Source: a virus. Taken from it: a stretch of DNA of 40,450 nucleotides. Positions 3,256 to 39,417 of the stretch are shown in pieces. A model generated the notes under the pieces. That model had not been told where the DNA came from. It was given only the letters and a program-made list of their open reading frames with translations, and did not search any database. The stretch spans positions 1 through 40,450 of the IMG/VR virus record IMGVR_UViG_3300027760_000042; one strand, 5' to 3'. Every line of letters begins with the position of its first letter. The stretch's first letter is position 1. A program made the translations under genes and the position numbers.

Positions 3256-3272
3256 TGTCTAGACTCTGTACT
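3256..3272. promoter_or_regulatory. 17-bp dyad element (degenerate) before SSB
   Basis: TGTCTAGACTCTGTACT fits the recurring GGTCTA-N5-TAGACC dyad with changes in the outer positions. It lies directly upstream of the AGGAGA ribosome-binding site of the SSB gene and touches the RNA polymerase stop codon. Confidence 0.55.
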
Positions 3273-5665
3273 CAGTTGAAGTAGTAGTCAGAGTCCCTAA
3301 CCTTTGAAACGTCCAGAGAACCGTACTCTGGAACTTCAGGCAGACTAGCAGACGAAGGGAGCATTGTCAAGACCCCCTGACGAAATTCTCGCAGCAGATC
3401 ACGAGAAAATATGTCAATAGTTGCCTCGCGGACGCAAGAAGAGGTCTTCATGTAGTCGCCAGAGAGGCAAAGGATCTGATCGTGGACGCAGCCAAGGTGG
3501 TTGATGCCATTAGAAGCGCACATATTGATTGTGTGACCAAGAAGTCCACCAAATCCGTCAAGAGAGTGAATGTAATTTGCGGGGCCGCCGTTCAGAGCCT
3601 TACGTTTGCTCTGCTTTCCGTTCTCCTGACGCAAAGAAAGCACCTTTGCCTTGGCCCCGATGCGCGTAGAGACCGTAATCACATCGTAATTCTCGTAGCG
3701 CATACGAACGGGGAAGCCGATGGGAGTCATCCAATGAGGCGTGACATCGTTGTCAATAAGCACACCCATGCATCCACGGATGAAATCCATGCCACGTTTG
3801 GCTGAGCCCACGACATCATCAATAGATTCCCAGATGATCTTGCCAAGGAAAGCCACGGGCTTGTAAGTCTCCAGTCCAAAAGGATTCTCTCCAGTCTTTC
3901 TCATCTTTTCCTCTAGCCATTCACGGGTGTAACCCATGCAAGAGTGCAGGGTCAGCCCGTATGGCAGGGTCATAGTCTGACGCTTGGTCGTGGTTCGGTC
4001 AACACCAAACTTCAAAATATTTGAAGCAATAGGATCAGGGGAGTTGATCAGCCGCTTGATGACCTCGTAGGCCACAAACTGGTACGGATCGGATGGCGCG
4101 TTCGATGGGATGACGTTGGTAGCCAAGGCTCCCACAGGGTCGCGAAGCAGCATGGAGTAGATCTGCAAGCCCTGCGTGGTGGCATCCATGGCGATTGGAA
4201 GGCTGCTGATGAAGCCCTTGCCATGGTTCCACAGTCCATTGATCTCACGACAGGCGGCCACAAACGCGAACGGCTCATCAGCCTTTAGCCATTCACGATT
4301 AGACCAAGGATCACGAGCGGTCTGAACGATCAGATTGCGGTTCTCTTCCACCCACTTGACACGTTCCTTGAGCGGCCTCTTGTCAAGACCAAACTTATTG
4401 GCTACCTGCAGGTACAGAGGATACTGGTCTGCCTCGGTGTTCAGCGGCTTGCCGTTGGCAAAGCGCAGCATGGCCTTGGCATATGACACACCCTGAGGGT
4501 GGAGAAACAGGGGAAGCGGGTAACCACGACCACGAAAGTCCAACTGGTGTGGGAACCAGAGGAACTTATGCTGATGCATCTTGTCCGCAATGAACAGCGA
4601 CTTGAGAGTCAGAAGCCGTTGAGATTCATAGGACTCGTTGAGGAAGTGGATCTTAGCAGCAGCCTTGCGCCAAGAGCGTCGAGCCTCATCGTTCGTGTCG
4701 ATGTCTGTCGGCTTGGTAGGAAGTTCCTCGTTACGAGATGGTGGAAGGCCATCAATCGCAAACCCTTCCTTCCAACATTCCTTAACAAGATCCATGGTCT
4801 GAATATCGACAGTCCATGGGGTGTTCTGCACGAAGTTCACAGCCGAGTATACGGCAGGTGACAAACCCGATGATAGTGATTCCTGATATGCTTTGGAGCG
4901 ACTCTTCACTAACGGTCGAGGCTTCCACTCCAACGAGGCATATCCGCCCACCCACGGGTTATTCCACTCCAAAGGCTTCTCAACCGTGGGCAAGAACATC
5001 GGTTCAAGAGTCTCGTGATACTCGTGGCAGTCCTTTATCCACTTGCGGATGTCCTTGGACGGCTGAATGACACAGTAGCGGCGGCCCCGAGCATTCAACT
5101 TGGTGATGATGTCGATGATCCCGGTACGAGTAGCAACCATCTCGACAAGTAGGAGGCCAATCGCAAGCGCGTCAGCCTTGGCCCACCGCTGCGTCACCAG
5201 ATCCACAGCCTTGGCAGCATCACGGGCAAACCTGCGCTTGAACTTCTGACCCACACTCTTAAACGTCTTTTTCTGCACCTGTCGAAGGAAGTCCGGGTTG
5301 TTGTCAGCAAGGTCGGCCAACAGCACCTCATCCTCGATGGCACGACCCACAGCAACACAAGTGCCCGTAAGCATTCGCTCCTGCGACAAGGCATCGATGA
5401 TTACCTTGGAAGCAATGACTGCGATCTTTTCTGGCTCCAGTTGCTGCATGAAGGGAAGACACCGATGTCTACGTCCGGGCCCGCTTGAGGACTTGGCAAT
5501 CCAAGATTCGATCTCGTCTACCAGTTCGGTAGTGCAGCGGTTTAGCATCATCCGCCCGGGGATGGTGTTGCTTTCGGCGGCGATGCGATGGGCCTTTTCG
5601 GTGCGATTCTGATATCGCTGCCTACCCAGTTCAACCATTTCCTTGTCGAGTTTGCTTTGGCGCAT
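3272..5665 (-). CDS. T7-like single-subunit RNA polymerase
   Basis: DNA-dependent RNA polymerase of 797 residues (T7 gp1 is 883) that would transcribe the middle and late phage genes. Catalytic motifs are intact. Motif A is LPIAMDATTQGLQIYSMLLRD with D494. Motif B is RTTTKRQTMTLPYG with K561 followed by the conserved YG. Motif C is CVHDQ with H728-D729. The segment YIHSLDGFGG (about 698-707) matches the T7 VHSQDGSH region. The protein ends in YYFN, comparable to the T7 C-terminal foot (FAFA). The shorter length mainly affects the N-terminal domain, which in T7 binds the promoter. The start at 5665 has no clear ribosome-binding site. A predicted extended -10 promoter lies only about 23 bases upstream, so the message would be nearly leaderless. 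Confidence 0.96.
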   Translation of the reverse strand: MRQSKLDKEMVELGRQRYQNRTEKAHRIAAESNTIPGRMMLNRCTTELVDEIESWIAKSSSGPGRRHRCLPFMQQLEPEKIAVIASKVIIDALSQERMLTGTCVAVGRAIEDEVLLADLADNNPDFLRQVQKKTFKSVGQKFKRRFARDAAKAVDLVTQRWAKADALAIGLLLVEMVATRTGIIDIITKLNARGRRYCVIQPSKDIRKWIKDCHEYHETLEPMFLPTVEKPLEWNNPWVGGYASLEWKPRPLVKSRSKAYQESLSSGLSPAVYSAVNFVQNTPWTVDIQTMDLVKECWKEGFAIDGLPPSRNEELPTKPTDIDTNDEARRSWRKAAAKIHFLNESYESQRLLTLKSLFIADKMHQHKFLWFPHQLDFRGRGYPLPLFLHPQGVSYAKAMLRFANGKPLNTEADQYPLYLQVANKFGLDKRPLKERVKWVEENRNLIVQTARDPWSNREWLKADEPFAFVAACREINGLWNHGKGFISSLPIAMDATTQGLQIYSMLLRDPVGALATNVIPSNAPSDPYQFVAYEVIKRLINSPDPIASNILKFGVDRTTTKRQTMTLPYGLTLHSCMGYTREWLEEKMRKTGENPFGLETYKPVAFLGKIIWESIDDVVGSAKRGMDFIRGCMGVLIDNDVTPHWMTPIGFPVRMRYENYDVITVSTRIGAKAKVLSLRQENGKQSKRKALNGGPANYIHSLDGFGGLLGHTINMCASNGINHLGCVHDQILCLSGDYMKTSSCVREATIDIFSRDLLREFRQGVLTMLPSSASLPEVPEYGSLDVSKVRDSDYYFN

Positions 5666-5668
5666 ATT

Positions 5669-5685
5669 GGTATAGAGTCTAGACT
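5669..5685. promoter_or_regulatory. 17-bp dyad element at the RNA polymerase gene
   Basis: GGTATAGAGTCTAGACT fits the dyad consensus. It begins two bases past the predicted -10 hexamer and so covers the expected transcription start and ends three bases before the start codon. This is a typical operator position. Confidence 0.65.
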
Positions 5686-5687
5686 AA

Positions 5688-5696
5688 ATTATAGCA
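5688..5696 (-). promoter_or_regulatory. Extended -10 promoter for RNA polymerase gene
   Basis: The minus strand reads TGCTATAAT, a perfect TATAAT with the TG of an extended -10. No good -35 hexamer is seen at normal spacing; that stretch is the U-tract and stem of the upstream terminator. Host RNA polymerase would initiate near 5681. Confidence 0.55.
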
Positions 5697-5699
5697 CTA

Positions 5700-5737
5700 A
5701 AAAAACAAACCCCCTGTATCCCAAAGGATACAAGGGG
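5700..5737 (-). terminator. Rho-independent terminator after DUF932-like gene
   Basis: On the minus strand, 5726-5737 (CCCCTTGTATCC) pairs with 5710-5721 (GGATACAGGGGG) around a 4-base loop, with one G-U pair. The run TTTGTTTTTTT follows. It isolates the RNA polymerase gene from early transcription read-through. Confidence 0.88.
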
Positions 5738-5783
5738 CTCGAAAGGAAAGGAGAATGCCGTGACTAGCGGCAACTCCAGTATA

Positions 5784-6512
5784 TCAGGCGTTGGCGTAGT
5801 GAGCCGACAAAGCCTTCTCAAATCCGAGAACTCGCTGCGGTCGCTCGACCGGGTTGAGGGTCTTGGCCAGATGGGTGTATGCCGCGTGGAGATTCCACAG
5901 GCACAGATCGGAGGTCTCGTAGTCAAAAGACGGCTTGACACATTCATCGTAGAAGTCGATGACCTGAGCCTTGTGCAGTAGACCCTTGCGACCAAGATCC
6001 ACGGCAAAGGAGGCCAGTTGCTCCGTGCTTGTGTTGACCTTCTTGAGATCCTCGTAGAACTCGTTAGCCTTGGCGACCTCGTAACCAAAAGAGGCCACGG
6101 CATCGTCGATCATTTTCGGAAGACGATCCCACACATGGGCTGTGTGCTTAGTGCGAAGAACGTGATCAGCGACAATCATGCCGTTGGTGCAGACATACAC
6201 CGTGCCGCCGAAGATGATCCGATTGGAGATGGTCTTGTTGTAACTGTTCATCATGGCAACAGTCCACTTCATGCGACCATCGTTCGGAAGATCCGGCCCC
6301 TCAACATCGATCTTGCTGATGAAGATCGGATGCTTGCGGTGAACCATGTGGGTCTCGTTGTTGAGCGTGTAGCCCCGCAACTCAAAGCGGTTGCAAGCCT
6401 CCTTGAAGAAACTTGCCTGATCCACAGGGGTGTACGACTCGGTGCGCTCCGGGAGGGGAATGCTCTTGATGTCGGCCAGAGTACGGTAGGTAGTGCGAAT
6501 GCGAGTAGCCAT
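5784..6512 (-). CDS. DUF932-like protein
   Basis: A protein of 242 residues. The central segment MMNSYNKTISNRIIFGGTVYVCTNGMIV resembles the DUF932 core, in which an NSYD/G stretch is followed by a conserved (C/T)NG. This family is common in phages and plasmids and its biochemical role is not established. The C-terminal half is helical and charged, with FDYETSDLCLWNLHAAYTHLAK near the end. The start has a GAGAG-type site downstream of a perfect 17-bp dyad (6530-6546). A strong terminator lies about 45 bases after the stop, so the gene closes an early transcription unit just before the RNA polymerase gene. Confidence 0.7.
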   Translation of the reverse strand: MATRIRTTYRTLADIKSIPLPERTESYTPVDQASFFKEACNRFELRGYTLNNETHMVHRKHPIFISKIDVEGPDLPNDGRMKWTVAMMNSYNKTISNRIIFGGTVYVCTNGMIVADHVLRTKHTAHVWDRLPKMIDDAVASFGYEVAKANEFYEDLKKVNTSTEQLASFAVDLGRKGLLHKAQVIDFYDECVKPSFDYETSDLCLWNLHAAYTHLAKTLNPVERPQRVLGFEKALSAHYANA

Positions 6513-6529
6513 AGTGAATCTCTCTTTCT

Positions 6530-6546
6530 GGTCTAGTGTCTAGACC
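6530..6546. promoter_or_regulatory. 17-bp dyad element before DUF932-like gene
   Basis: GGTCTAGTGTCTAGACC has perfect outer arms GGTCTA/TAGACC. It lies 18 bases upstream of the DUF932-like start and supplies the TAG stop codon of the preceding small gene. Confidence 0.75.
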
Positions 6547-6743
6547 AAGGTGTGCGGAGGATTGTCGGTCGCCACACGGAGGAAACGCTCCTCGTCTGGC
6601 GCAATCCACAAGCCATGCTGTTCAGAACGCCAGAGTGCAAGTGTCGCGAGATTGAAAGATGTTTCCAAATCTTCTCGCATCCACCCGACATAGGCTTTCT
6701 GAATCGTGTCAGACATGATGAAGGTGTGCTTGCGTATCTCCAT
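6540..6743 (-). CDS. Hypothetical small early protein
   Basis: The open frame has 67 codons from ATG 6743. An internal ATG at 6716 (MSDTIQKAYVG) is an alternative start. Neither has a clear ribosome-binding site, and the predicted promoter -10 (6750-6755) would place +1 at or just before 6743, so translation may be leaderless or begin internally. The product is a mixed helical protein with several Trp residues. I recognise no family. It is supported mainly by its place between a promoter and a dyad in a compact early operon. Confidence 0.45.
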   Translation of the reverse strand: MEIRKHTFIMSDTIQKAYVGWMREDLETSFNLATLALWRSEQHGLWIAPDEERFLRVATDNPPHTLV

Positions 6744-6749
6744 GTGCGT

Positions 6750-6777
6750 ATATTACAGGAGAATCAGACATTGTCAA
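6750..6777 (-). promoter_or_regulatory. Sigma70-type promoter, TTGACA-N16-TAATAT
   Basis: On the minus strand a perfect TTGACA (6772-6777) is followed after 16 bases by TAATAT (6750-6755). The same 16-base spacing recurs in three other early promoters. The -35 lies inside the last codons of the gene upstream. Confidence 0.7.
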
Positions 6778-7018
6778 TAGGCATGATGTCGAGCCAACCG
6801 GGGCCAGTCATCTCCTCATTGCGCCACGCCTGAACGCTGAATACCTTGCCATCCGGGCGAACCATCACAAGGTTGATGACGTACTCGCCGGGATTGAGGC
6901 GGTCTTCGCCAATGCCGATGCCCATGACGGTTGCGTTCTTGAGAACAGACACACGGTTATAGGCATAGGTTGCGCCTGAGGGAGTGTCACGAGTTGGGGT
7001 CTTTCCAGTCCAAGCCAT
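6764..7018 (-). CDS. Hypothetical early protein
   Basis: I chose ATG 7018 (MAWTGKTPTRDTPSG) because AAGGAG lies 8 bases upstream. A longer frame to 7063 has no such site. The product is 84 residues with Gly-rich turns and alternating hydrophobic residues (GEYVINLVMVRPDGKVFSVQAW), suggesting a small beta fold. No known domain is recognised. The 3' end carries the -35 of the next promoter. It probably follows the 7096-7593 gene on the same transcript; a 7-bp hairpin (7060-7084) lies between them. Confidence 0.55.
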   Translation of the reverse strand: MAWTGKTPTRDTPSGATYAYNRVSVLKNATVMGIGIGEDRLNPGEYVINLVMVRPDGKVFSVQAWRNEEMTGPGWLDIMPIDNV

Positions 7019-7059
7019 TGCTATGCTCCTTGTAAGAGGAAAGCGCGTTATTTGGTAAG

Positions 7060-7084
7060 CCACGGTATGCGCGCCCCACCGTGG
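7060..7084 (-). promoter_or_regulatory. Intergenic hairpin, possible attenuator or processing site
   Basis: CCACGGT (7060-7066) and ACCGTGG (7078-7084) form a perfect 7-bp stem with an 11-base GC-rich loop. No U-tract follows on the minus strand, so it is not a standard terminator. Confidence 0.4.
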
Positions 7085-7095
7085 TATCGAAAGGA

Positions 7096-7593
7096 TTACT
7101 CAGACACCTTGGTGGAGATGCGCTCACAGAGGGCATCCATCACAGTCTCACGGAACTCAGCGTTGTTGACGAACTGCGTGACAATCTGCAGGGCCAACTG
7201 CTTGTGGTTGATGTGTTCGATGATCCTGTCGAAGTCGAGTTCCTCGGCAACGCGGGAGAGGTCGAGGCTCTTGGCCACCTCACGGATGCTCATGGCGTTG
7301 GCAACGTCATCGGTATCCACGTTGTCCGCGACATACTCCGCAAGGCTGCTCATGCAGAGGTGGTCAGCCACAACTGAGGTATCGATCTCTCTTGCAATGT
7401 CGCTTGCGGTGATCTCGGAGGCAACGCCCTCGGCAACGAGGGTCACGAACTCGGAGTCGTTGGCCAGTCGCTCGGCCACGGATCCGTTGGAGACAGCAGC
7501 GGAGGTGGTCAGGTCGGGCTGCGTGATCTGCTCACGAACGGCAGCGGTGATGGAGTCGAGCGAAGACGGGGCAATGGTGACGATCAGTTCCAT
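7096..7593 (-). CDS. Repeat-rich acidic protein with IA/ID/VA motif repeats
   Basis: A protein of 165 residues with an ATG preceded by GAAAGGA. From about residue 60 to 130 it is built of short degenerate repeats of the form I/V-A-x-x-(L/I)-D-x-S/D, for example DIAREID, VVADHL, SLAEYVAD, DVANAM, EVAKSLD, RVAEELD and RIIEHI. The period is about 10 residues. Such arrays suggest a helical solenoid or an extended helical scaffold. Similar unannotated proteins occur in other phages as far as I recall, but no function is known. Its leader is the archetype of the early cassette: sigma70 promoter, 5' hairpin, 17-bp dyad, ribosome-binding site. Confidence 0.65.
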   Translation of the reverse strand: MELIVTIAPSSLDSITAAVREQITQPDLTTSAAVSNGSVAERLANDSEFVTLVAEGVASEITASDIAREIDTSVVADHLCMSSLAEYVADNVDTDDVANAMSIREVAKSLDLSRVAEELDFDRIIEHINHKQLALQIVTQFVNNAEFRETVMDALCERISTKVSE

Positions 7594-7616
7594 GTTCTCA
7601 ATCCTTTCAAGATTGT

Positions 7617-7633
7617 GGTCTAGTGTCTAGACC
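7617..7633. promoter_or_regulatory. 17-bp dyad element before repeat-rich early gene
   Basis: GGTCTAGTGTCTAGACC is identical to the copy at 6530. It lies between the 5' hairpin and the GAAAGGA ribosome-binding site of the gene starting at 7593. Confidence 0.78.
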
Positions 7634-7641
7634 GGGTTGGT

Positions 7642-7696
7642 GTCGAGAGAACATCCCTCGACAAGTGAATAGTACCAGAAGAAACGAATTTGTCAA
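7642..7696 (-). promoter_or_regulatory. Sigma70 promoter plus 5' hairpin
   Basis: Minus-strand TTGACA (7691-7696), 16-base spacer, TACTAT (7669-7674). The shared TTCACTTGT follows, and a GTCGAG/CTCGAC hairpin (7642-7662) begins at the predicted +1. It drives the gene starting at 7593. Confidence 0.75.
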
Positions 7697-8533: not shown

Positions 8534-8549
8534 TGTGAAGTTTCCTTTC

Positions 8550-8566
8550 GGTATAGAGTCTAGAAT
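8550..8566. promoter_or_regulatory. 17-bp dyad element after gp88-like gene
   Basis: GGTATAGAGTCTAGAAT fits the dyad consensus. It lies in the short gap between the gp88-like stop and the next ribosome-binding site. Confidence 0.65.
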
Positions 8567-9372
8567 CAAGCGTTCCACACGAACACACTATTGAGGTTGA
8601 TCTTGCCCTTGGCCTTGAGGCCGATGACATAGCCGCCCTTGGGGTCGAGAAACCGGGCATCGGACAGGTCGCCGTTGATGACACGGGCACCCATGCACCG
8701 CTCGGGCAGATCTTTGCGGAACACTACGGCCACGTTGCCACCTGCATTGAGGTACTGGATGCATTGGTCGTGATTGTGACCGGAGTAGGACAGGGTCAGG
8801 TGCAGCGGAAACGCCATGGGCCTAGGCTTCCGAGAGCGAGAGTCCATGGCCCGAGCAAATGACTTGGTGTAGTCATAGTTGTTGGCACAGAACTCGTAGA
8901 TCTGCGGAGCAACGTGTTCCCACGGAATGTCCGAGAGGACGTTAGAGCGGAACGCAAAGCCGTCATGGCCGTGCTTTTTACAGGCCGCATCCAGTTCCTT
9001 GTACAGTTGGCGGAAGAACGTATGCGGATCGGCCATCAGGTACACGGTCTTGGCGATGCGGGCAGCACGGACATTGGAGAACTTGGATCGCCCCGCAGTC
9101 ACGCCAAGGCAAGCAGCCTCACACTCAGGGCTACGCCACGGGCAGAGTTGGTAGCCCGAGGAACCTGCAGGAGCCAAGGTCAGGCCGTAGATGGGCACGG
9201 AACCCTTGGCCAACTTGGTGTTTGCCCCGGGAGGAGTCAGGATCTTGCGATCCCGTCCGCTGAAGGGCGTCTGATACAGGAAGCCACGGAACGCAGCAGC
9301 AGCGGCTTCACGAATGGCATCCCACTTGGGAGCCTTGGCCTCGTTGTTGAGGACGTTGAGAGGAGTAGTCAC
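8566..9372 (-). CDS. gp88-like phage protein with Cys cluster
   Basis: A protein of 268 residues. The GTG start is supported by GAAAGGA 8 bases upstream. The N-terminal third contains a Cys motif CPWRSPECEAACLG followed by GRSKFSNVRAARIAKT. I recognise this as the signature of the phage 'gene product 88' family. Further conserved-looking parts are DGFAFRSNVLSDIPWE, LTLSYSGHN and a C-terminal beta region (NVAVVFRKDLPE, GYVIGLKAKG). The three Cys could bind a metal or iron-sulfur centre; this is inference. The family has no established role. It is the first gene behind an early promoter with the hairpin-dyad leader, so it is probably expressed soon after infection. Confidence 0.75.
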   Translation of the reverse strand: MTTPLNVLNNEAKAPKWDAIREAAAAAFRGFLYQTPFSGRDRKILTPPGANTKLAKGSVPIYGLTLAPAGSSGYQLCPWRSPECEAACLGVTAGRSKFSNVRAARIAKTVYLMADPHTFFRQLYKELDAACKKHGHDGFAFRSNVLSDIPWEHVAPQIYEFCANNYDYTKSFARAMDSRSRKPRPMAFPLHLTLSYSGHNHDQCIQYLNAGGNVAVVFRKDLPERCMGARVINGDLSDARFLDPKGGYVIGLKAKGKINLNSVFVWNA

Positions 9373-9392
9373 GGTCGTTTCCTTTCGAGTTT

Positions 9393-9409
9393 GGTCTAGA
9401 CACTAGACC
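9393..9409. promoter_or_regulatory. 17-bp dyad element before gp88-like gene
   Basis: GGTCTAGACACTAGACC is the exact reverse complement of the copies at 6530 and 7617. The element therefore occurs in both orientations relative to its genes. Confidence 0.78.
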
Positions 9410-9422: not shown

Positions 9423-9473
9423 GGGACACCATGTCCCACAAGTGAATAGTATCCTGCAATCAGGAATTGTCAA
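9423..9473 (-). promoter_or_regulatory. Sigma70 promoter plus 5' hairpin for gp88-like gene
   Basis: Minus-strand TTGACA (9468-9473), 16-base spacer, TACTAT (9446-9451). TTCACTTGT follows, and a GGGACA/TGTCCC hairpin (9423-9437) lies at the predicted 5' end of the message. Confidence 0.75.
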
Positions 9474-9753
9474 TAGGCGGCAGAGCCACGACATGGGCAA
9501 TGATCTTGGCCACATCGTCGGAAGTCTGCCAACCGATCACATCGTCATCGTGAGTCCAGTCGGGCATCCGATAGAGACCGTTTGCACAGAAGATGGCAAC
9601 TTCGGCGTTCTTACACGCACTTGTAAACGACTTTCCACGGTTGTTGCAGTAAGCCAGTCGATGAAACTGGATGCTGATGGTGTAACCGTTGGAGAACTGC
9701 ATATGGATGCCGTTGTGGTTGCTGCTTGCGGCGTTTTGAGTGAGGCTGATCAT
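9460..9753 (-). CDS. Conserved phage hypothetical protein
   Basis: A protein of 97 residues from ATG 9753 with AAAGGAAC upstream. The N-terminal half (NGIHMQFSNGYTISIQFHRLAYCNN) is a beta-strand pattern. The middle holds a short AEVAIF strand and the end an acidic D-DDVIGWQTSDDVAKII element. The combination of a 'sensitive to beta' N-terminus and a 'GWQT-DDVA' C-terminus is one I associate with unannotated phage proteins often found near gp88-like genes, so the gene is probably real. No function can be assigned. Its 3' end overlaps the promoter of the gp88-like gene. Confidence 0.6.
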   Translation of the reverse strand: MISLTQNAASSNHNGIHMQFSNGYTISIQFHRLAYCNNRGKSFTSACKNAEVAIFCANGLYRMPDWTHDDDVIGWQTSDDVAKIIAHVVALPPIDNS

Positions 9754-9764: not shown

Positions 9765-9781
9765 TTTCTAAAGTCTAGATT
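9765..9781. promoter_or_regulatory. 17-bp dyad element (weak arms)
   Basis: TTTCTAAAGTCTAGATT keeps the inner TCTA-N5-TAGA but not the outer GG/CC. It lies directly upstream of the GAAAGGAAC ribosome-binding site of the gene starting at 9753. Confidence 0.55.
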
Positions 9782-10182
9782 CAGAGGGCCGTTTCGATGA
9801 TGTCTGCGATCTCGTTGAAGTTCAAGCCACGACAATCGTTGATGTCGGAAATACTGTCGGTATGAAAGACTCCGTGCTTATCAGTCCAAGTGATCCGGGG
9901 ATCCATGTCCGGCAGTTCTGCCCATGCACGAACACGAAACGGCAACGTACCCATGCAGTCATCCATGGTGTACATGGTCACCGAGTCTCGGCTGTGCTGC
10001 CATCCATCCTCTTCCATGAGCATTGCACCACGAGTCACCATCCACAGGTTGCACAGCACCCCAAGGGCACAGAAACAGAGTTGGCCAGATTCCCGATCAT
10101 TGCGGCACAGGGCTCCACTACCCTTCGTGTACTCACCTGAGCGGAGCGCAGAAACCCAAAGAGCCTTGATGTTCTTGTTCAC
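9781..10182 (-). CDS. Conserved phage hypothetical protein (LWVSALRSGEY type)
   Basis: The GTG start at 10182 has GAAAGGA upstream; the frame extends further but would run through the leader. The product is 133 residues. Features are an N-terminal KALWVSALRSGEYTKGSG, a Cys-containing hydrophobic core QLCFCALGVLCNLW, and a C-terminal LNFNEIADIIETAL helix. This arrangement (WVxALRSGxY, FCxLGVLCD/N, FxEIADxIE) recurs in many phages as an unannotated family. The role is unknown; the LNDxGxxFxEIA pattern suggests a compact helical protein. It is the first gene after a promoter with hairpin and dyad in the leader. Confidence 0.7.
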   Translation of the reverse strand: MNKNIKALWVSALRSGEYTKGSGALCRNDRESGQLCFCALGVLCNLWMVTRGAMLMEEDGWQHSRDSVTMYTMDDCMGTLPFRVRAWAELPDMDPRITWTDKHGVFHTDSISDINDCRGLNFNEIADIIETAL

Positions 10183-10201: not shown

Positions 10202-10218
10202 GGTCTAGACTTTAGAAC
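10202..10218. promoter_or_regulatory. 17-bp dyad element, early leader
   Basis: GGTCTAGACTTTAGAAC lies between the 5' hairpin and the GAAAGGA site of the gene starting at 10182. Confidence 0.68.
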
Positions 10219-10282
10219 TCTCTCACGTTGAGAGAGAACTATGTCCACATCTGAATACTACCACAGATACCCAAGTTGTCAA
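10218..10282 (-). promoter_or_regulatory. Sigma70 promoter plus 5' hairpin
   Basis: Minus-strand TTGACA (10277-10282), 16-base spacer, TAGTAT (10255-10260). A CTCTCTC/GAGAGAG hairpin with ACGTT loop (10218-10236) follows in the leader. Confidence 0.72.
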
Positions 10283-10469
10283 GGGTATCTAATTGGTCTA
10301 CACAATGGTCTACTTGCTATAGTACCTAAGTTACCTAGTACTAGTCTTATATCTTATACCTGTATCTAGATCTATATTAGATACATATATAAGGACTATG
10401 GGTGGACTAAAGATTATACCTAAGTATAGACTCTAGAATGGATGTCTTGCTGAAGCGGTCGCGCCGGGT
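10283..10469. other. AT-rich gene-free stretch with short repeats
   Basis: No credible gene. The stretch 10300-10425 is strikingly AT-rich, with many TAT and CTAG-type words. It contains GGTCTAC twice 12 bases apart (about 10296-10315), repeated CCTAAG/CCTAGT words, and a minus-strand TATAAT (10413-10418) next to a dyad copy. It adjoins the 22-bp tandem repeats, so together they are a candidate replication origin or control region. Confidence 0.5.
10423..10439. promoter_or_regulatory. 17-bp dyad element beside a TATAAT
   Basis: AGTATAGACTCTAGAAT fits the dyad. A minus-strand TATAAT (10413-10418) lies 4 bases downstream, so the dyad would overlap the -35 side of that promoter. Confidence 0.55.
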
Positions 10470-10625: not shown

Positions 10626-10642
10626 AGTCTAGACTCTATACC
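10626..10642. promoter_or_regulatory. 17-bp dyad element in early gap
   Basis: AGTCTAGACTCTATACC fits the dyad and is nearly the reverse complement of the RNA polymerase copy. No gene starts directly after it on either strand. Confidence 0.6.
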
Positions 10643-10749: not shown

Positions 10750-11571
10750 TCACGCCTTCCCTCCCTTCGCTTCGGCCATGGCCTCGGCCTCCTGCCTCTT
10801 CGCCTCCATGGCCTCGGCCTTCGATGCGGCCTTCGCGAGCAATGCGGCGGCGGCGAGCCCGTCATCCTTCGTCATCTTCATGGCAAACTTATACAGGCGA
10901 TCGATCATGACGGATTCCGATTCTGGTTCGTCCCCCGACACTTGCTTCGCGGCCTTTCGGCAAGCGTCAAGCGAAGGCTTCGTCTCTTCGTTCCCATCCT
11001 GCGCAACATCGGCCATATCGCGAATCTTGGCGGGCTCACCCTTCGCTGCGCTGGCGATTGCCCGGAGTCCTTCCATCGGAAACTTGGCCGCGCGTTCCGT
11101 GCCGATGGCCGCAGTCGCGTTCCCGATGTCCTTCAGATAGTAGACGGTGGCCTTCGCGAGTCCCGCACCCGTGAGGCAGCGCACGACCCATGCCGCGAGG
11201 CTAATCCCGTAGGCGCGAGGAAGGCCAGTAGCGTTCGCTTCGGCGATGGCTACTGCGGCTTCACGGGCTCCGCCTTCGACTGCGGTTGCCTTCGCGATGA
11301 CGTTCGCTTCGGCGGCCTTCATGGCATCACTAAGCACGACGATGCCTTCGGCCTTCGCTTCCGCCTTCGTCATGCCTTCAGCGGCCTTCGGAGCCTCTGC
11401 GGCCTTCGGCTCCCCCTTGCCTGCCTTCGGCATGGCAGGAGCCTCAGGGGCGGCGACTGCGGTGACCTTCGGCCCCTTACCCTTCGGCTTGGTGGTCGGC
11501 TCAACGGGCACGATCATTGCTCCCGCAGGGCCGTAGACGGTGGTGGTGGCGGTGGTGGTTGCGTTCTTCAT
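10750..11571 (-). CDS. Ala-rich early protein of unknown function
   Basis: A 273-residue protein with ATG at 11571 and GAAAGGA upstream. The first 80 residues are low-complexity (Thr-rich start, then Pro/Lys/Ala with repeated PKAAEAPKAAE and KAEAKAE). The central part (residues about 100-220) is better mixed, with GLPRAYGISLAAWVVRCLTGAGLAKATVYYLKDIG, and could be a folded helical domain. The C-terminus is again Ala/Glu/Lys-rich (KAEAMEAKRQEAEAMAEAKGG). Codon use is dominated by GCC/GAA/AAG, producing many CGAAGGC words. It is the first gene after the gene-free region that may hold the genome ends, the usual place for host-takeover genes; that role is inference only. Confidence 0.65.
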   Translation of the reverse strand: MKNATTTATTTVYGPAGAMIVPVEPTTKPKGKGPKVTAVAAPEAPAMPKAGKGEPKAAEAPKAAEGMTKAEAKAEGIVVLSDAMKAAEANVIAKATAVEGGAREAAVAIAEANATGLPRAYGISLAAWVVRCLTGAGLAKATVYYLKDIGNATAAIGTERAAKFPMEGLRAIASAAKGEPAKIRDMADVAQDGNEETKPSLDACRKAAKQVSGDEPESESVMIDRLYKFAMKMTKDDGLAAAALLAKAASKAEAMEAKRQEAEAMAEAKGGKA

Positions 11572-11715: not shown

Positions 11716-11732
11716 GGTCTAGGCTCTAGACC
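11716..11732. promoter_or_regulatory. 17-bp dyad element, upstream of Ala-rich gene
   Basis: GGTCTAGGCTCTAGACC has perfect outer arms. It lies 145 bases upstream of the Ala-rich start and 56 bp from a second perfect-arm copy. Confidence 0.72.
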
Positions 11733-11771: not shown

Positions 11772-11788
11772 GGTCTAGACCCTAGACC
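11772..11788. promoter_or_regulatory. 17-bp dyad element, second of a pair
   Basis: GGTCTAGACCCTAGACC has perfect outer arms. The two copies are 56 bp apart centre to centre. Confidence 0.72.
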
Positions 11789-29372: not shown

Positions 29373-29975
29373 TTAGTAGATCCTATAGGAGCCTTGGCGA
29401 AGGAACGGACGAATAACACTTTCGCTTTGGAAGATGCTGTAGTCGCCAACCTCATTTTCATATTCAGTCAATCGTGCAAGGGCGGCAACTTCATCTTGCA
29501 TCTCAAACCCATGAAGCGTAGAGGAGCCGACTACACGATCTTGAAAGATACGGGCGGAACGGATTGTAACGTATCGCTTGGCAATCTCAGGCATCTCATC
29601 GAAGTCTAGCAGGGTTACCTGCGTGGTCGTTAGAGCCTCTGTAAAGGCGTAGGACGAGGTCAACCGATTGTACAGGCGATTGCCCCGGATCACCACCTCA
29701 AGGGCAACGGTGTCATCTGTGGAGGCAATGTCAACGCGCACAATGCTGTCGGAGATGTAGATGAACCCGGTAGTGGTCTCAGGGGTCATCACCACATTCT
29801 CATCGGTATTGAACTGCCAACCGTAGGACAGGATATCGCGGGTGGTTTCGTCTAGGATGGTTTGAGCAATCAGCGAGTCTGCGCGTTGGGCTGCCAACGA
29901 GTTAACAGGCGGCTCTCCAATGGCCGAAAGCATCGTGTTGATTGCCTGTAGTTTGTTTGTTTTTGTTAGAGCCAT
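29373..29975 (-). CDS. Tail tubular protein A (T7 gp11-like)
   Basis: A 200-residue protein (T7 gp11 is 196). Family features are LQAINTMLSAIGEPPVNSL at the start, ILDETTRDILSYGWQFNTDENVVMTP in the middle and the strand/helix end (MPEIAKRYVTIRSARIFQDRVVGS...EVAALARLTEYENEVGDYSIF). It is the gatekeeper ring that joins the portal to the nozzle. The ATG has AGGA within a perfect 16-bp palindrome (29975-29990) right after the capsid terminator, so it starts a new segment of the late operon. Confidence 0.94.
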   Translation of the reverse strand: MALTKTNKLQAINTMLSAIGEPPVNSLAAQRADSLIAQTILDETTRDILSYGWQFNTDENVVMTPETTTGFIYISDSIVRVDIASTDDTVALEVVIRGNRLYNRLTSSYAFTEALTTTQVTLLDFDEMPEIAKRYVTIRSARIFQDRVVGSSTLHGFEMQDEVAALARLTEYENEVGDYSIFQSESVIRPFLRQGSYRIY

Positions 29976-29990
29976 TCTAGGATCCTAGAA
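29975..29990. promoter_or_regulatory. Perfect 16-bp palindrome over the gp11-like ribosome-binding site
   Basis: TTCTAGGATCCTAGAA is a perfect palindrome that covers the AGGA site and ends at the start codon. Its outer half (TTCTAG/CTAGAA) resembles the arms of the early dyad. It could be a hairpin or a binding site. Confidence 0.5.
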
Positions 29991-29997
29991 AGATAGA

Positions 29998-30043
29998 CAA
30001 AGAAAAGAGAGGGCGGAACCCAACTTAGGGAACCGCCCTCTCT
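29998..30043 (-). terminator. Rho-independent terminator after capsid gene (T-phi analogue)
   Basis: Minus-strand AGAGAGGGCGG pairs with CCGCCCTCTCT (30033-30043 with 30006-30016), extended by GGG/CCC across a small internal mismatch. TTTTCTTTG follows. T7 has its main terminator at the same place, after gene 10. Confidence 0.88.
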
Positions 30044-30060
30044 TAAACCTAGTAACTCAA

Positions 30061-34171: not shown

Positions 34172-34190
34172 CTAGGGCTCCTGTTTCTTG

Positions 34191-35347: not shown

Positions 35348-35360
35348 GTGGTTTTCCCTA

Positions 35361-35561
35361 TTAATCTAGAAGCGACTCGTTTTGATCATTGAAGACACGC
35401 TGCAGGTGCAAAAACACCGCACGTTGTCCCGCATAAAAGTAAATTTCTTGGACTGTTTCCCCAATCTTGGCACACCGCTCCGGGTACAGATCAGAAAGCA
35501 CCCGCAGCAGTTCTTCGGAAATCGGAGGAAACACGCTATCCTTAGATATGTTATTATTCAT
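35361..35561 (-). CDS. Small conserved phage protein (IYFYAGQRAVF type)
   Basis: A 66-residue protein. I chose ATG 35561 (MNNNISKDS) with AAAGGAAA upstream. The pattern LLRVLSDLYPERCAKIGETVQEIYFYAGQRAVFLHLQRVFNDQNE is one I associate with small phage proteins near the exonuclease and portal genes: an (F/Y)PE(R/)C turn followed by E..(I/V)YFYAGQR. It is helical and probably part of a complex. The function is unknown. It overlaps the end of the Nmad1-like gene. Confidence 0.65.
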   Translation of the reverse strand: MNNNISKDSVFPPISEELLRVLSDLYPERCAKIGETVQEIYFYAGQRAVFLHLQRVFNDQNESLLD

Positions 35562-35892
35562 CTGTTTCCTTTGCGCTTTGGATGAATGCGTACAGAATAA
35601 TGACATAATTGATCATATCAAGGACGGTGTCCCGCAGGGCTTCATCCTTAACCCTGAATTCTCCGGTAGTCAGGAAGGTAGAGAGCCGGGACATCTTGTC
35701 CGTCAGGCGAACCATGATCCCGGCCTCCGTCTTGCAGATCCCCATAGACTCGCAGCGGGTAAAGTTCAGAAAGGGGTGCTTATCGTCCTTCCCCCCGCTG
35801 TAATCATGGTTTTTACGCTCAGAGAGCGCACGGGCTTCATCACACAGTTCCTTATGCATTGCTAGCAGTCGCGTACGATTCATGGCTTCCAT
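35554..35892 (-). CDS. Nmad1/DUF1599-like protein
   Basis: A 112-residue protein. I chose ATG 35892 (MEAMNRTRL) because AAGGAAG lies 7 bases upstream. The pattern KNHDYSGGKDDKHPFLNFTRCESMGICKTEAGIMVRLTDKMSRLSTFL...VKDEALRDTVLDMINYVIILYAF matches the nucleotide modification associated domain 1 (DUF1599), with conserved N-DY, NF, RL-DK-R and EA-DT--D--NY. The family is related in shape to MazG/dUTPase-type all-alpha enzymes, but its activity is not settled. Its place beside exonuclease and polymerase genes suggests a role in nucleotide or DNA metabolism. Confidence 0.78.
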   Translation of the reverse strand: MEAMNRTRLLAMHKELCDEARALSERKNHDYSGGKDDKHPFLNFTRCESMGICKTEAGIMVRLTDKMSRLSTFLTTGEFRVKDEALRDTVLDMINYVIILYAFIQSAKETDE

Positions 35893-36611
35893 AGAGATAC
35901 TTCCTTGGTTTCCCAGTTGTATTCGCCGTGGCGAAGGATGCGGGCGCAACGAGCCTGAGTAAGCGCATACTCCTCGTTAAATCCATTGTTAGTATAAGCC
36001 TCCAGAACTTCACTCCATGTACCGTTCTTGAGGATCTTGGCTGCGGTCACCGGACCTACTCCTTCCAGTCCCGGATAGCCATCGGTCTTGTCGCCAGTCA
36101 GGGTCTGCATCAGCCAGTTGCGATCAGCCTCTTCCTTGGTGATCAGGACTGGCTCCTCGTCCTTGTCGGGATTCCAGAGCATTCCGGGAATGCACTTGAG
36201 ATCCTTGTCGGAAGAGATGATGATGGGATTGATGTAGGAGCCCTCAGTCTGCAGGATGCCGATGATGTCATCTCCCTCAAGCATCGGCTCTTCCTTGACG
36301 CAGTATGCCTTGCTCAGCATCTCCTTCACGGCCTTGTATCCACAGGGCTTGCGACAAGCCTTACGGTGGGCCTTGTAGGTCGGGAAGATATGCTTGCGGA
36401 AGTTGTCCTTGCCCGTGAACCCAAGCACCGCGAAGCCACCATTCAACTTTGTCATCCACGACCGAATGGTGGTCTCGCAGAGGTGCAGGGCTTCTTTGTT
36501 GTTGCAAAATGCAACATCGGTATCGTCATCAAAGCGGGCAACATACTCCACCGCAGAGCAGATGCCATAGATCAGGATGTCACCATCGACAAGTAGCGTT
36601 CTCATTTTCAT
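35880..36611 (-). CDS. T7 gp6-like 5'-3' exonuclease
   Basis: A 243-residue FEN-type nuclease (T7 gp6 is 300). Conserved parts are LLVDGDILIYG (D9, D11), FRKHIFPTYKAHR (arch region), EPMLEGDDIIGIL, IIISSDKDLKCIPG with the acidic metal ligands, and the helix-three-turn-helix TGDKTDGYPGLEGVGPVTAAKIL. It removes RNA primers and degrades host DNA to supply nucleotides. ATG 36611 overlaps the upstream TGA as ATGA; a second ATG two codons on is possible. Confidence 0.92.
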   Translation of the reverse strand: MKMRTLLVDGDILIYGICSAVEYVARFDDDTDVAFCNNKEALHLCETTIRSWMTKLNGGFAVLGFTGKDNFRKHIFPTYKAHRKACRKPCGYKAVKEMLSKAYCVKEEPMLEGDDIIGILQTEGSYINPIIISSDKDLKCIPGMLWNPDKDEEPVLITKEEADRNWLMQTLTGDKTDGYPGLEGVGPVTAAKILKNGTWSEVLEAYTNNGFNEEYALTQARCARILRHGEYNWETKEVSLWKP

Positions 36612-36811
36612 TCATCCATCTGGGCTTCAGCAGCCCGACCAAGGACTTCAATAAGTCCAAAGGCTCCGTGCATTGTGGACTTGACGCAGATGCTGTAGTT
36701 GTCGCTGTTCTTTCCCTTCGTGCTGAACCCGACAAACACCAGTTCATCGAAACGCCGTTTCAGTTCGTGGACTAGTTCATCATCCGTCATGTACTCAATT
36801 GGTGTAGACAT
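36608..36811 (-). CDS. Small conserved hypothetical protein
   Basis: A 67-residue protein directly before the exonuclease and coupled to it by an ATGA overlap. The pattern DDELVHELKRRFDELVFVGFSTKG...MHGAFGLIEVLGRAAEAQ is a helix followed by two strands and a helix; I associate it with unannotated small phage proteins. The ribosome-binding site is weak (AAGAGA). It starts inside the end of the LAGLIDADG frame, so it would be cut if that element is mobile. No function assigned. Confidence 0.6.
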   Translation of the reverse strand: MSTPIEYMTDDELVHELKRRFDELVFVGFSTKGKNSDNYSICVKSTMHGAFGLIEVLGRAAEAQMDE

Positions 36812-37127
36812 TCTTAAGTCTCTTAAGGGTTTTGATGTGTCTAAGTCGTTCTGACTTTATGGTTGCTGCAGCCGCCTGAAACAAGGCGCAGATCTGTGAG
36901 TGCTTGATGATGCTGTATCGAGCCACGCAGGAGAGGTAGGTCAGGGCTTTCTTTCCATAGAGGGTCCAGACGTAAACGCCTTTCTCCTTAATCCTGACGC
37001 TGCCACCCCACTTTTCCTGCATTGAAACAAGCACTCCATAATGTTTGTTCGTGACTTCAATGCTTGGGCTCTTGTTCCAACGAATGCAGCCCTCGCCATC
37101 AAGCAGTCCGGCTGCATAGGCATTCAA
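36795..37127 (-). CDS. LAGLIDADG-type homing endonuclease-like protein
   Basis: A 110-residue frame that begins at TTG 37125-37127, overlapping the DNA polymerase TGA as TTGA; a longer frame (to 37217) would run inside the polymerase. The N-terminus LNAYAAGLLDGEGCIRW contains one LAGLIDADG-like motif (AAGLLDGEG, residues 5-13). A beta-rich saddle follows (SIEVTNKHYGVLVSMQEKWGGSVRIKEKGVYVWTLYGKKALTYL) and a basic helix (IKSERLRHIKTLKRLKN). One motif per chain would mean a homodimer. The start codon is inferred, with no clear ribosome-binding site, so translation is probably coupled to polymerase. It may target a site near the polymerase gene. Confidence 0.7.
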   Translation of the reverse strand: MNAYAAGLLDGEGCIRWNKSPSIEVTNKHYGVLVSMQEKWGGSVRIKEKGVYVWTLYGKKALTYLSCVARYSIIKHSQICALFQAAAATIKSERLRHIKTLKRLKNVYTN

Positions 37128-38887
37128 TGTGTTTCTGCCCAGTTGGCCCCCACGCGGTACTCGCCGTCCAGAGGACAACGGAAATCGAAATCTGCTCCCG
37201 CCTGTTGAATAGCCCATACGACAATATTACCAACCGACTCTGCGTAGTTCTTGGAAACCATGAACTGATATTCGTCATGGACCGAAGCAACCTGTTCAAC
37301 ATCCATTTTCACAGGCTGCTTGTCAAACTGTACCCATGCATTGACGCAAGCCTTCTTCATCACGACTGCACCTGCAGACTGAAGCAGCGTATTGAGTGCT
37401 GCGTATTCAGAACGGGGATACAACGGTCTAAAGTCTAGACCACGCAGGAACCCATTGGATGCAAGCGATAGGGCAACATCAGCCTTGAGCCGCGTGTACG
37501 CAGGAACCTTGGCCTCAAAGTTGGCACGAGCGTTGGCCCCTCGCCGCTTGTCGCCGCCAAGGACCATGCCCAACTTGTCGTTCCCTGCGCCATAGATCAG
37601 CGCATAGATCGCGCCCTTGGCCTGATTGCGGGCTGCCTTATGTTCCGGGTTGGCCTTGTCCTGCGGCACATCCTTGATGAGGCCGAAGGCAATGGCGTTG
37701 CTCCAATGGATGTCTCCAGTAAGAATTTCTTGGGCGTATTTCTTACCGTCATATTTGCCAAGGTAGTGAGCGAGGCAGCGCAGTTCCAGACCAGAGGCAT
37801 CCACGCCAACAAGCACCTTGCCACGGGAAGGAACAAACAGGCTGCGGTACTCCTTGTCCGTGGGAACCTGAGCCATGTTCGGACTGCGGTGGGTGCAGCG
37901 GCCCGTGATGGCTCCGTTGGTGTTCACACGGCCATGCAGACGGCCATCAGGAGCCACCGCCTTGAGCCAAGCCTCGTCACCGTCTGCCAGTTGTCCCAGA
38001 CGCTTCTGAACGGTCAGGTAGCGGCTCAGGATCTTGGCCTCGGGGTAGTCGAGCGAAGCCAGTACAGCCTCGTCAACGCGGGGCTTGCCATCGGGAGTCA
38101 ACTCAGTTGGAGCCCATGAGTACTTTGTCATCAAACGATAAGCAATCTGCGTTCGACTGCCGGGATTGAAGATCTCAACCTTGGACTTCAGACGCTTACC
38201 AGTCTTTTCTGACCTGCGCTCCGTCACGATGGGAGGGAAGACCTCCTGCAGTTTCTGCTCAATATCCAGTTGATCCTTAAGCAGGGTTCCGTGCAGACGC
38301 TGAGCAGCCTCAATGTCAAAGGGGAAGCCAACGCGCTCCTGCTCACGGATGATGGCTGCGAACTGATGCTCCAGAGTCGCCGCTGTAGCCGCACTAGGCA
38401 TGGATGGGTGGTTGAGGAGGTGCTGATGCAGAGCCGCAGTAACACGAACATCCTGCTTGCAGTACTCCCGCAGTTGCTCGGTGTCCTTGGTAAAGTCAGG
38501 AGCCTCGCCCTTGGCAATGCCAAGACGAATGCCCCAAGCCTTCAGCGACTGACTGCCAACCAACTCCTTCGGCAGGGCCTTGATCTGAAAGTCCCGCTCT
38601 CGCTGATCTGCATGAAGCAGACGGCACATGAGAAGTGTGTCCACAACCTTTGCAGGATCTGGCTTAAACGTGGGATACAACTTCTGAAGAGCCGGGATGT
38701 CAAATGACTGGATGTTGTGTCCGATGATCTGATCTGCATTCTGCAGCAGCGTCAGGCCATCCTTGATGTCCACGATCTTGGGGTCTTCGCCATCGATGCT
38801 GACGGCCATGCAAAGCACGGTCTTCACATCAGACAAGTGGATCCAATCGTGGATGTCGTTCGTTTCAATATCAAAGTAAATGTTCAT
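37124..38887 (-). CDS. T7-type DNA polymerase (family A)
   Basis: A 587-residue polymerase with proofreading (T7 gp5 is 704). Exonuclease motifs: DIETN (D6, E8), IIGHNIQSFDIPAL (H57, D63) and EYCKQDV (Y142, D146). Polymerase motifs: A VGVDASGLELRCLAHYL (D363), B RNQAKGAIYALIYGAG (about 420-435), C VASVHDEYQ (H537, D538, E539). It ends RVGANWAETH, close to the T7 end. Between the conserved LQEVFPP and FNPGSR there are only about 22 residues, whereas T7 has about 80 there, including the thioredoxin-binding loop. Host thioredoxin may therefore not be its processivity factor. A degenerate dyad lies 10 bases before the start. Confidence 0.96.
   Translation of the reverse strand: MNIYFDIETNDIHDWIHLSDVKTVLCMAVSIDGEDPKIVDIKDGLTLLQNADQIIGHNIQSFDIPALQKLYPTFKPDPAKVVDTLLMCRLLHADQRERDFQIKALPKELVGSQSLKAWGIRLGIAKGEAPDFTKDTEQLREYCKQDVRVTAALHQHLLNHPSMPSAATAATLEHQFAAIIREQERVGFPFDIEAAQRLHGTLLKDQLDIEQKLQEVFPPIVTERRSEKTGKRLKSKVEIFNPGSRTQIAYRLMTKYSWAPTELTPDGKPRVDEAVLASLDYPEAKILSRYLTVQKRLGQLADGDEAWLKAVAPDGRLHGRVNTNGAITGRCTHRSPNMAQVPTDKEYRSLFVPSRGKVLVGVDASGLELRCLAHYLGKYDGKKYAQEILTGDIHWSNAIAFGLIKDVPQDKANPEHKAARNQAKGAIYALIYGAGNDKLGMVLGGDKRRGANARANFEAKVPAYTRLKADVALSLASNGFLRGLDFRPLYPRSEYAALNTLLQSAGAVVMKKACVNAWVQFDKQPVKMDVEQVASVHDEYQFMVSKNYAESVGNIVVWAIQQAGADFDFRCPLDGEYRVGANWAETH
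37425..37441. promoter_or_regulatory. 17-bp dyad sequence inside polymerase gene
   Basis: GGTCTAAAGTCTAGACC has perfect arms but is coding (RGLDFRP region). It could be a chance match or an internal regulatory site. Confidence 0.4.
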
Positions 38888-38896
38888 GGCGTTCTC

Positions 38897-38913
38897 CTTA
38901 TAGACTCTAGACT
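38897..38913. promoter_or_regulatory. 17-bp dyad element (degenerate) before polymerase
   Basis: CTTATAGACTCTAGACT lies 10 bases upstream of the DNA polymerase start and overlaps its AAGGAG site region and the stop of the HTH gene. Confidence 0.55.
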
Positions 38914-39248
38914 TCGTCCGCTTTCGTGATTCCCTTCGATGCCCAGTATGCGGAAATCTTCTTCAGGGCAATGTCGTGAATGCTCTTTGCCTCATTTGCG
39001 CTGATGCCCGGTTCGTGAGGATACCTAGCATTGAACTCCTTTGCAAGCGCCTCCCAACTCTCCGGCTCTAGCCCTGCGGGGATACCGCGATACTTATTTG
39101 GACGGCTTTCATATCCGTACCTGATTACCGTGGATATCAACTGTGGGCTAACGCCATATTTCTTGGCTATGTCCACCTTCTTTATGGGTGTCTTGGCCAG
39201 AGCCTGAATCTCGGTGATCTGCTGATCAGTCAGTTTTCTCTCGCGCAT
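38907..39248 (-). CDS. Small HTH DNA-binding protein
   Basis: A 113-residue protein. The N-terminal KLTDQQITEIQALAKTPIKKVDIAKKYGVSPQLISTVIRYGY (residues 5-46) is a helix-turn-helix of the Hin-recombinase/HNH-accessory kind. The rest (PAGLEPESWEALAKEFNARYPHEPGISANEAKSIHDIALKKI) is helical and acidic. There is no nuclease motif. It has AGGA before the ATG and overlaps the previous gene. A degenerate dyad copy lies directly upstream (39258), so autoregulation is conceivable. It is the only evident HTH protein in the window and a possible binder of the 17-bp dyad, but this is inference only. Confidence 0.7.
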   Translation of the reverse strand: MRERKLTDQQITEIQALAKTPIKKVDIAKKYGVSPQLISTVIRYGYESRPNKYRGIPAGLEPESWEALAKEFNARYPHEPGISANEAKSIHDIALKKISAYWASKGITKADEV

Positions 39249-39417
39249 TGCTTATCCTGTCTAGACGTTCGACTGCCTTCTCCAATTTACTCATTGCATT
39301 GAGAAATTTTACTTGCTCAAGTGAGCAATTTGTTTTATGACGCTTCCAAGCATCCGACACTTCACGAGATGCCTCGACAATGGTCAGGACGATTCGTTTC
39401 ATCGATCTGGTGATCAT
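39226..39417 (-). CDS. Small hypothetical protein
   Basis: A 63-residue protein. ATG 39417 overlaps the ThyX stop as ATGA, with AGGA upstream. It is charged and helical (ASREVSDAWKRHKTNCSLEQVKFLNAMSKLEKAVERLDRI), and a coiled coil is likely. It overlaps the HTH gene start by 23 bases. No family is known. It lies in the compact nucleotide/replication block and is probably translated by coupling. Confidence 0.55.
   Translation of the reverse strand: MITRSMKRIVLTIVEASREVSDAWKRHKTNCSLEQVKFLNAMSKLEKAVERLDRISNAREKTD
39258..39274. promoter_or_regulatory. Degenerate 17-bp dyad before HTH gene
   Basis: TGTCTAGACGTTCGACT keeps only part of the dyad and is inside the upstream small gene. It is a weak match and listed because it is next to the HTH gene. 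Confidence 0.35.

Follow-up and report, generated by a model that had tools for sequence, protein, structure and literature searches.

Dispersed operator-like dyads at the early genes of T7-like phages change sequence together with the first gene of the genome

The uncultivated virus record IMGVR_UViG_3300027760_000042, analysed here over its full 40,450 bases (the window), has T7-like gene content on the minus strand and carries a short dyad in about 14 copies, positioned where its early genes begin. In most of its closer relatives, dyads stand before the same early genes and before the genes of the phage RNA polymerase (RNAP), the single-stranded DNA-binding protein (SSB) and the DNA polymerase, and their sequence is specific to the lineage. 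The dyad co-varies with one gene, 10750-11571 on the minus strand, which an earlier sequence-only reading of this DNA had not considered. It is the first gene of the genome in T7 order, which puts the genome start near 12 kb; the contig break falls between the primase/helicase and ThyX genes. The best reading of the sequences makes its product the candidate reader of the dyad, and the dyads are probably operators of this regulatory protein, with specificities that have diversified like those of immunity groups.

The core of the dyad, TCTAG-N3-CTAGA, occurs in five exact copies against 0.01 expected, and in 13 copies with at most one mismatch against 0.72 expected (maximum of 3 in 100 shuffles). 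With two mismatches the count (30 against 12.5 expected, maximum 24) is hardly above chance. Recurrence like that of perfect GGTCTA...TAGACC arms reached at most 1-2 in the shuffled null, and six copies (6530, 7617, 9393, 11716, 11772, and 37425) have perfect outer arms, in agreement with the “five or six” counted before. The sequence-only reading was therefore right to regard the motif as non-random, and a dyad of this family lies at every position that it listed. The copies at 3256 and 39258, with two core mismatches each, are not significant alone; the former is better supported, as a good copy stands at the equivalent place before SSB in relatives. The fuller consensus is GGTCTAG-NNN-CTAGACC, and the centre is ACT or AGT in 42 of the 52 exact-core sites of the window’s type, with 27 ACT and 15 AGT on the coding strand. 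The centre thus occurs in both orientations, as claimed, while what had been taken for an asymmetric centre mostly belongs to the dyad itself.

The dyads of the window lie at early, RNAP, SSB, and DNA polymerase genes, with none of the window’s type among the structural genes (Table 1); both the association with early and replication genes and the absence from the structural region, proposed earlier, are borne out, the former also by the placement of the sites in relatives. In nine near-complete genomes, 94 of the 95 exact sites fall outside the interval from portal to TerL, which makes up 50-59% of each genome, and one falls inside. Nine likely copies end 3-23 bases 5' of a start codon and touch the Shine-Dalgarno sequence, and a start follows 144-240 bases downstream of the copies at 10423, 11716, and 11772. 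The spacing of 10-25 bases before a ribosome-binding site, described previously, does not match these positions.

Table 1. Genes, dyad copies, and transcription signals of the window
Feature	Position	Strand	Remark
First gene, 273 aa, proposed reader/repressor of the dyads	10750..11571	-	co-variation with dyad type independent of backbone
Dyad copy GGTCTAGGGTCTAGACC, upstream of first gene	11772..11788	.	exact core
Dyad copy GGTCTAGAGCCTAGACC, upstream of first gene	11716..11732	.	exact core
Dyad copy directly downstream of first gene, beside terminator-like run	10626..10642	.	1 core mismatch
Dyad copy directly upstream of a TATAAT	10423..10439	.	
Dyad copy before open reading frame (ORF) 9781-10182	10202..10218	.	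1 core mismatch
Dyad copy before ORF 9460-9753	9765..9781	.	1 core mismatch
Dyad copy GGTCTAGTGTCTAGACC before Gp88-family gene	9393..9409	.	exact core
Dyad copy before ORF starting 8533	8550..8566	.	1 core mismatch
Dyad copy GGTCTAGACACTAGACC before ORF 7096-7593	7617..7633	.	exact core
Dyad copy GGTCTAGACACTAGACC before DUF932-like gene	6530..6546	.	exact core
Dyad copy over expected transcription start of RNAP gene	5669..5685	.	1 core mismatch
Degenerate dyad copy before SSB	3256..3272	.	2 core mismatches; good copy there in relatives
Weak dyad ending 9 bases before HTH gene	39258..39274	.	2 core mismatches, not significant
Dyad copy before DNA polymerase	38897..38913	.	1 core mismatch
Dyad copy within DNA polymerase coding sequence (GGT CTA GAC TTT AGA CCG)	37425..37441	.	
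TCTAGGATCCTAGA, operator type of another lineage, abutting start of gene 29373-29975	29976..29989	.	
Sigma70-type promoter TTGACA-N16-TAGTAT	10255..10282	-	dyad 10202 at about +30
Sigma70-type promoter TTGACA-N16-TACTAT	9446..9473	-	dyad 9393 at about +30
Sigma70-type promoter TTGACA-N16-TACTAT	7669..7696	-	dyad 7617 at about +30
Intrinsic terminator between DUF932-like gene and RNAP promoter	5706..5741	-	kept in closer relatives compared
-10 box TATAAT of RNAP gene, extended TGCTATAAT	5688..5693	-	2 bases before dyad
Small helix-turn-helix (HTH) protein, not specificity reader	38907..39248	-	recognition helix near-constant across dyad types
T7-type RNAP	3272..5665	-	PHROG 414, E=1e-201
Gp2.5-type SSB	2630-3244	-	
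Primase/helicase	677-2455	-	
ThyX	39414-40085	-	
T7-type DNA polymerase	37124-38887	-	
Gp88-family gene	8566-9372	-	Pfam GP88
DUF932-like gene, upstream neighbour of RNAP gene	5784-6512	-	DUF932 match

Among the relatives, gathered from IMG/VR by RNAP, DNA polymerase, and TerL scans, at least 15 dyad types were found, including TCTAGGATCCTAGA, GTCCAANNNTTGGAC, and TGAAACNNNGTTTCA. The window’s type (type A) is TCTAGASTCTAGA, and closer lineages carry TCTAGGATCCTAGA, TCTAGTTCCTAGA, TCTAGTCACTAGA, TCTAGACCCTAGA, TCTAAGWCTTAGA, TTATAGASTCTATAA, and TCTAGAACTCTAGA. Where RNAP identity is 62%, the dyads have unrelated sequences, namely TGAAAC-N3-GTTTCA, AATCCCAAATTTGGGATT, GTCCAA-N3-TTGGAC (18 copies in genome G028), and AGTCTCACTACTGAGACT. 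A distant phage (L114), with an RNAP 39% identical, has its own dispersed dyad, TGTAGCAASTTGCTACA, and no recurrent dyads occur in four cultured T7-like relatives. Most types use both centre orientations; type D2 has a single one (11/11). In one relative (L039, 5054-5086), four tandem TCTAGAG half-sites with a 7-bp period lie downstream of the first gene.

The co-variation between the first gene and the dyad type was assessed by partial Mantel tests of first-gene identity against shared dyad type. Corrected for two early genes, the test on 15 genomes gave r = 0.68 (p = 0.0002), and corrected for TerL, that on 35 genomes gave r = 0.58 (p = 0.0005); four control genes in the same 15-genome test gave r of about 0. 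Phages with 98-99% identical terminase and different dyads have first genes 26-40% identical. The window and two relatives (L145 and L032) carry three different dyads, with TerL 98-99% and first genes 31-37% identical (window and L145: TerL 98%, first gene 32%; L145 and L032: 99% and 37%). A further pair with unrelated dyads, L197 and L200, shows 99% for TerL and 26% for the first gene. In L015 and L016, the dyads differ and the RNAP is 99% identical, the DUF932-like protein 93%, and p12069 97%, against only 32% for the first gene. In addition, the closest first genes of unlike type go with the closest dyads (types A and H, 52%; K and K2, 48%; B and I, 46%), and dyads of a genome’s own type stand on both sides of its first gene, distant lineages included.

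The same comparisons bear on the two proteins that the sequence-only reading had put forward, the small HTH protein and, as an alternative, the phage RNAP acting on the dyads as promoters. The HTH protein has the signatures PHROG 517 and HTH_7, is found in every close relative whose contig spans primase/helicase to DNA polymerase, and usually has a dyad directly downstream of its gene. Against its being the protein that binds the dyads as operators, its recognition helix (SPQLxSxxxxxGY) is near-constant over eight dyad types, two phages (G012 and G013) have near-identical HTH proteins and different dyads, and tblastn with the HTH protein gave no match in the more distant G027, G028, and G030, although these have dyads. 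We consider this assignment very improbable. As regards the RNAP, T7 promoters are asymmetric, one-way sites and are likewise short sequences repeated before genes; the dyads precede genes on the coding strand, and one gene-strand form of them (GACTCTATA, GACACTAGA) is faintly like T7/SP6 promoters. Here, however, the RNAP stays constant while the site changes: the specificity loop is invariant over the dyad types, and 99% identical RNAPs (those of L015 and L016) go with unlike dyads. Moreover, the sites cluster upstream of the RNAP gene and are absent from the late region (the 1/95 in portal-TerL), and their centre has both orientations. It is thus extremely unlikely that the dyads are promoters of the phage’s own polymerase. 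As the recognition helix and the specificity loop are constant across types, neither protein can set the specificity. A third candidate, the conserved 67-aa gene at 6540-6743, was also rejected as the reader, since its product shows 94% identity when a B-type phage is compared with a D2-type phage.

The first gene being the preferred reader, the promoter context suggests how its product could act. Early sigma70 promoters of the form TTGACA-N16/17-TAnTAT occur on the coding strand only, and in five types (A, B, E, F, and G) the dyad takes a near-constant place at about +30, after the promoter and a leader hairpin. A promoter scan of the early region found 4 against 4.0 expected in shuffles, i.e., no excess; thus, the case for the promoters of the window is made by this strand bias and by their conservation together with the dyad in relatives. 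At the RNAP gene, the order is terminator, -10 box, dyad, start codon, and in L091, L093, L100, L102, and L105 the dyad precedes the likely -10 box. A dyad that can precede or follow the -10 box and can also lie past the transcription start fits steric repression or a roadblock, and not an activator or an element needed in the RNA. With the dyad symmetry and the two-way centre, this placement favours an operator of a DNA-binding protein over a one-way promoter, as the sequence-only reading had argued; its interpretation as a whole is partly supported.

Several further features lie in the same regions. The leader hairpins of the window (10248-10219, 9439-9410, and 7662-7634, minus strand), with a GGA-NNGTT-TCC-like tip, sit between early promoters and dyads, and similar hairpins are present in relatives of other dyad types. 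Near the copy at 10423, a dyad-like remnant at 10404 overlaps the TATAAT. In the stretch 6540-6777 (minus strand), the ATG (6743) of the 67-aa ORF, which has homologues in 23/23 genomes of its cluster, directly follows a TTGACA-N16-TAATAT promoter, an arrangement that suggests a leaderless transcript. Of the window’s four promoter-like TTGACA sites, this one alone has no dyad shortly after it. In the structural region, k-mer recurrence revealed no shared late promoter.

Given the proximity of the dyads to ribosome-binding sites, they could instead be RNA hairpins in the mRNA leader, acting in translation control or mRNA processing. The nine likely copies that end 3-23 nt before a start codon would suit such a role, as would the 5-7 bp stem, which is possible as RNA, and the leader hairpins that precede several dyads. 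However, the outer pairs show no clear compensation: at -1/+1, 104 are paired against 98.9 ± 2.6 in shuffles, at -2/+2, 54 against 50 ± 4.8, and there is no excess of G-U. In addition, the RNAP copy upstream of the likely -10 box in the five relatives named above is outside the leader, half-sites can occur in tandem with a 7-bp period (L039, 5054), and the dyad co-varies with a protein gene. On this evidence, the RNA explanation appears unlikely.

The protein of the first gene has few points of comparison. Family searches retrieved nothing in Pfam, NCBIfam, or PHROG, tblastn against cultured phages gave no match, and an alignment of first-gene proteins shows no conserved stretch. The AlphaFold2 model, built from 23 homologues, is all-helical with a mean predicted local distance difference test score (pLDDT) of 91, and the structure search gave one match to a viral prediction, A0A6J5M438. 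The PDB entry 7bqq (named “Gogy”) had a low E-value and was disregarded, since the match spans a compositionally simple helical stretch. In the model, a pair of helices at residues 125-156 (“AKATVYYL” in type A) resembles a helix-turn-helix by eye and may be one. A faint fold match to Spo0J/ParB (1vz0, match probability 0.21) would be compatible with another explanation, in which the dyads serve partition or genome compaction/replication as dispersed centromere-like sites and the first gene is ParB/KorB-like; KorB of plasmid RK2 does join partition and repression. The 1vz0 match, however, is not significant and is gone with the better model, no ParA was seen among the annotated genes, and the sites stand at promoters and gene starts and are excluded from half of the genome, which leaves a partition role quite unlikely.

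Returning to the operator explanation, the sequences show the dyads, their placement, their lineage-specific forms, and their co-variation with the first gene; from these we infer that a dimer binds the sites directly, represses by occlusion or as a roadblock, and confers immunity. The first-gene protein, probably as a dimer, would bind the dyad; the sites adjoin a -10 box, follow a strong sigma70 promoter at about +30, or abut a ribosome-binding site, and nearly every early gene start, that of the phage RNAP included, has such a site. The bound protein would then block initiation or passage of the host RNA polymerase, and the dyads on either side of the first gene would let its product regulate itself. 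The likely role would be the shut-off of lytic early genes, which may also exclude related phages of the same type. The joint switch of protein and sites between near-identical phages is the pattern expected of repressor immunity groups.

Several observations weigh against this picture. Neither an integrase nor a serine recombinase (PF00589, PF00239) was found in the window’s group, and the sites at the SSB and DNA polymerase genes, which are expected to be read by the phage RNAP, do not fit control of the host RNA polymerase alone. The PDB fold search with two models of the first-gene protein gave no match at E<=0.001, and since the fold matches no known DNA-binding protein, the helix-turn-helix at residues 125-156 is recognised by eye. 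A pure dimer operator need not have the single orientation of type D2. Finally, some first-gene proteins of the same type (types E and K) are just 37-42% identical, and the non-identical same-type comparisons come mostly from type A. A tyrosine integrase was seen only in the distant L114, itself with dispersed dyads, where it adjoins the RNAP gene (6611-7063). Because the window’s group has no integrase and this distant phage has one together with dyads, a temperate or superinfection-immunity role is put forward as a proposal.

Known systems offer partial parallels. The c repressors of phiC31 act on conserved inverted repeats of about 17 bp, dispersed in the early region and bound by one repressor; phiC31 thus shares dispersed early-region inverted repeats with the phages studied here, but it is a temperate Streptomyces siphovirus with unrelated genes. 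In the Cluster A mycobacteriophages (L5 group), the Rep repressor has many dispersed stoperators whose motif is particular to each phage; distances between motifs correlate with those between repressors, a site lying past a promoter can affect elongation, and a stoperator is an asymmetric sequence that binds a monomer and mostly has one orientation (PMC6550527, PMC9283540). The dispersed sites described here similarly have a genome-specific motif, matched by co-variation to a putative repressor, and their position at about +30 is compatible with a block to elongation. They differ in being dyads in both orientations (D2 excepted), in belonging to T7-like podoviruses instead of siphoviruses, with no integrase in the window’s group, and in that the first-gene protein, unlike Rep, has no detectable kinship to known families. 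In the temperate T7-like phages LUZ100, Pasto, and HTVC019P, a MarR regulator beside the integrase, just upstream of RNAP, has been proposed to bind beside the promoter of the RNAP gene and so silence that gene (PMC10134795). Here too, a phage-encoded regulator would have sites at the RNAP promoter of a T7-like phage; however, the candidate reader is at the left end, the upstream neighbour of RNAP is DUF932-like, no tyrosine integrase occurs in the window’s group, and the sites are at nearly all early genes. KorB, a ParB-type CTPase clamp, combines dispersed O_B operators on plasmid RK2 with local promoter repression (PMC11790492); likewise, one element-encoded protein is proposed here for operators dispersed over the element, although it shows no significant ParB similarity, nor a PDB match at the threshold above with the pLDDT 91 model. 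More generally, the sites lie over or beside early promoters, as do the repressor operators of temperate phages, and the window’s group differs from temperate-phage immunity systems in that no integration module was found. Of these, the Cluster A stoperators and the MarR/integrase switch are the nearest working analogues.

Two copies stand apart from the others. The 29975 palindrome, correctly singled out before as distinct from the window’s dyad, is TCTAGGATCCTAGA, the dyad type of G012, and in the window, G011, and G016, which have dyads of other types themselves, it stands directly against the same structural gene. The window’s structural genes are mostly 82-98% identical to those of G012 and its early genes far less; therefore, this copy probably arrived together with the structural module and need not be bound by the window’s own reader. 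A terminator-like hairpin after the capsid gene (29990-30060, minus strand; GAGGG..GGTTCCC..GGGTTCC..CCCTC, then TTTT) directly adjoins this foreign dyad and is kept in 11/11 genomes compared. The copy at 37425, with its CTA and AGA codons, is present in 5/10 type-A phages and 0/10 phages of other types, and may be a true intragenic site or reflect shared ancestry.

The window also encodes an exonuclease, a head-tail adaptor, and TerL. By RNAP, the nearest cultured phages are Pelagibacter phages (36% identity), and the first 20 kb had no match when searched as nucleotides against cultured phages. The host clue is a single genome_contigs match, a 13-kb contig in a “Proteobacteria bacterium” metagenome-assembled genome (L119), which gives no firm host. 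Repeated 45-nt modules occur at both contig ends (565-609, 40142-40186, and 40352-40396), between primase/helicase and ThyX, in a stretch that the contig end interrupts.

The usual view of T7-like phages is that they are strictly lytic and that their early programme is hard-wired. The system described here looks like a repressor-operator “immunity” system of a previously undescribed kind. We propose, with a little less than even confidence, that it comprises a repressor family with neither recognisable sequence relatives nor a fold counterpart in the PDB, whose at least 15 swappable operator specificities are immunity types in an uncultured clade of integrase-less T7-like phages. Nearly every early gene of such phages would thereby be under a switch for superinfection immunity or for dormancy without integration. 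If this is true, a whole clade would carry a genome-wide brake on its early genes, with immunity types exchanged between near-identical phages, and the first-gene family, which has no named relatives, would supply 15 sampled, naturally matched pairs of protein and site as potential orthogonal repressors.

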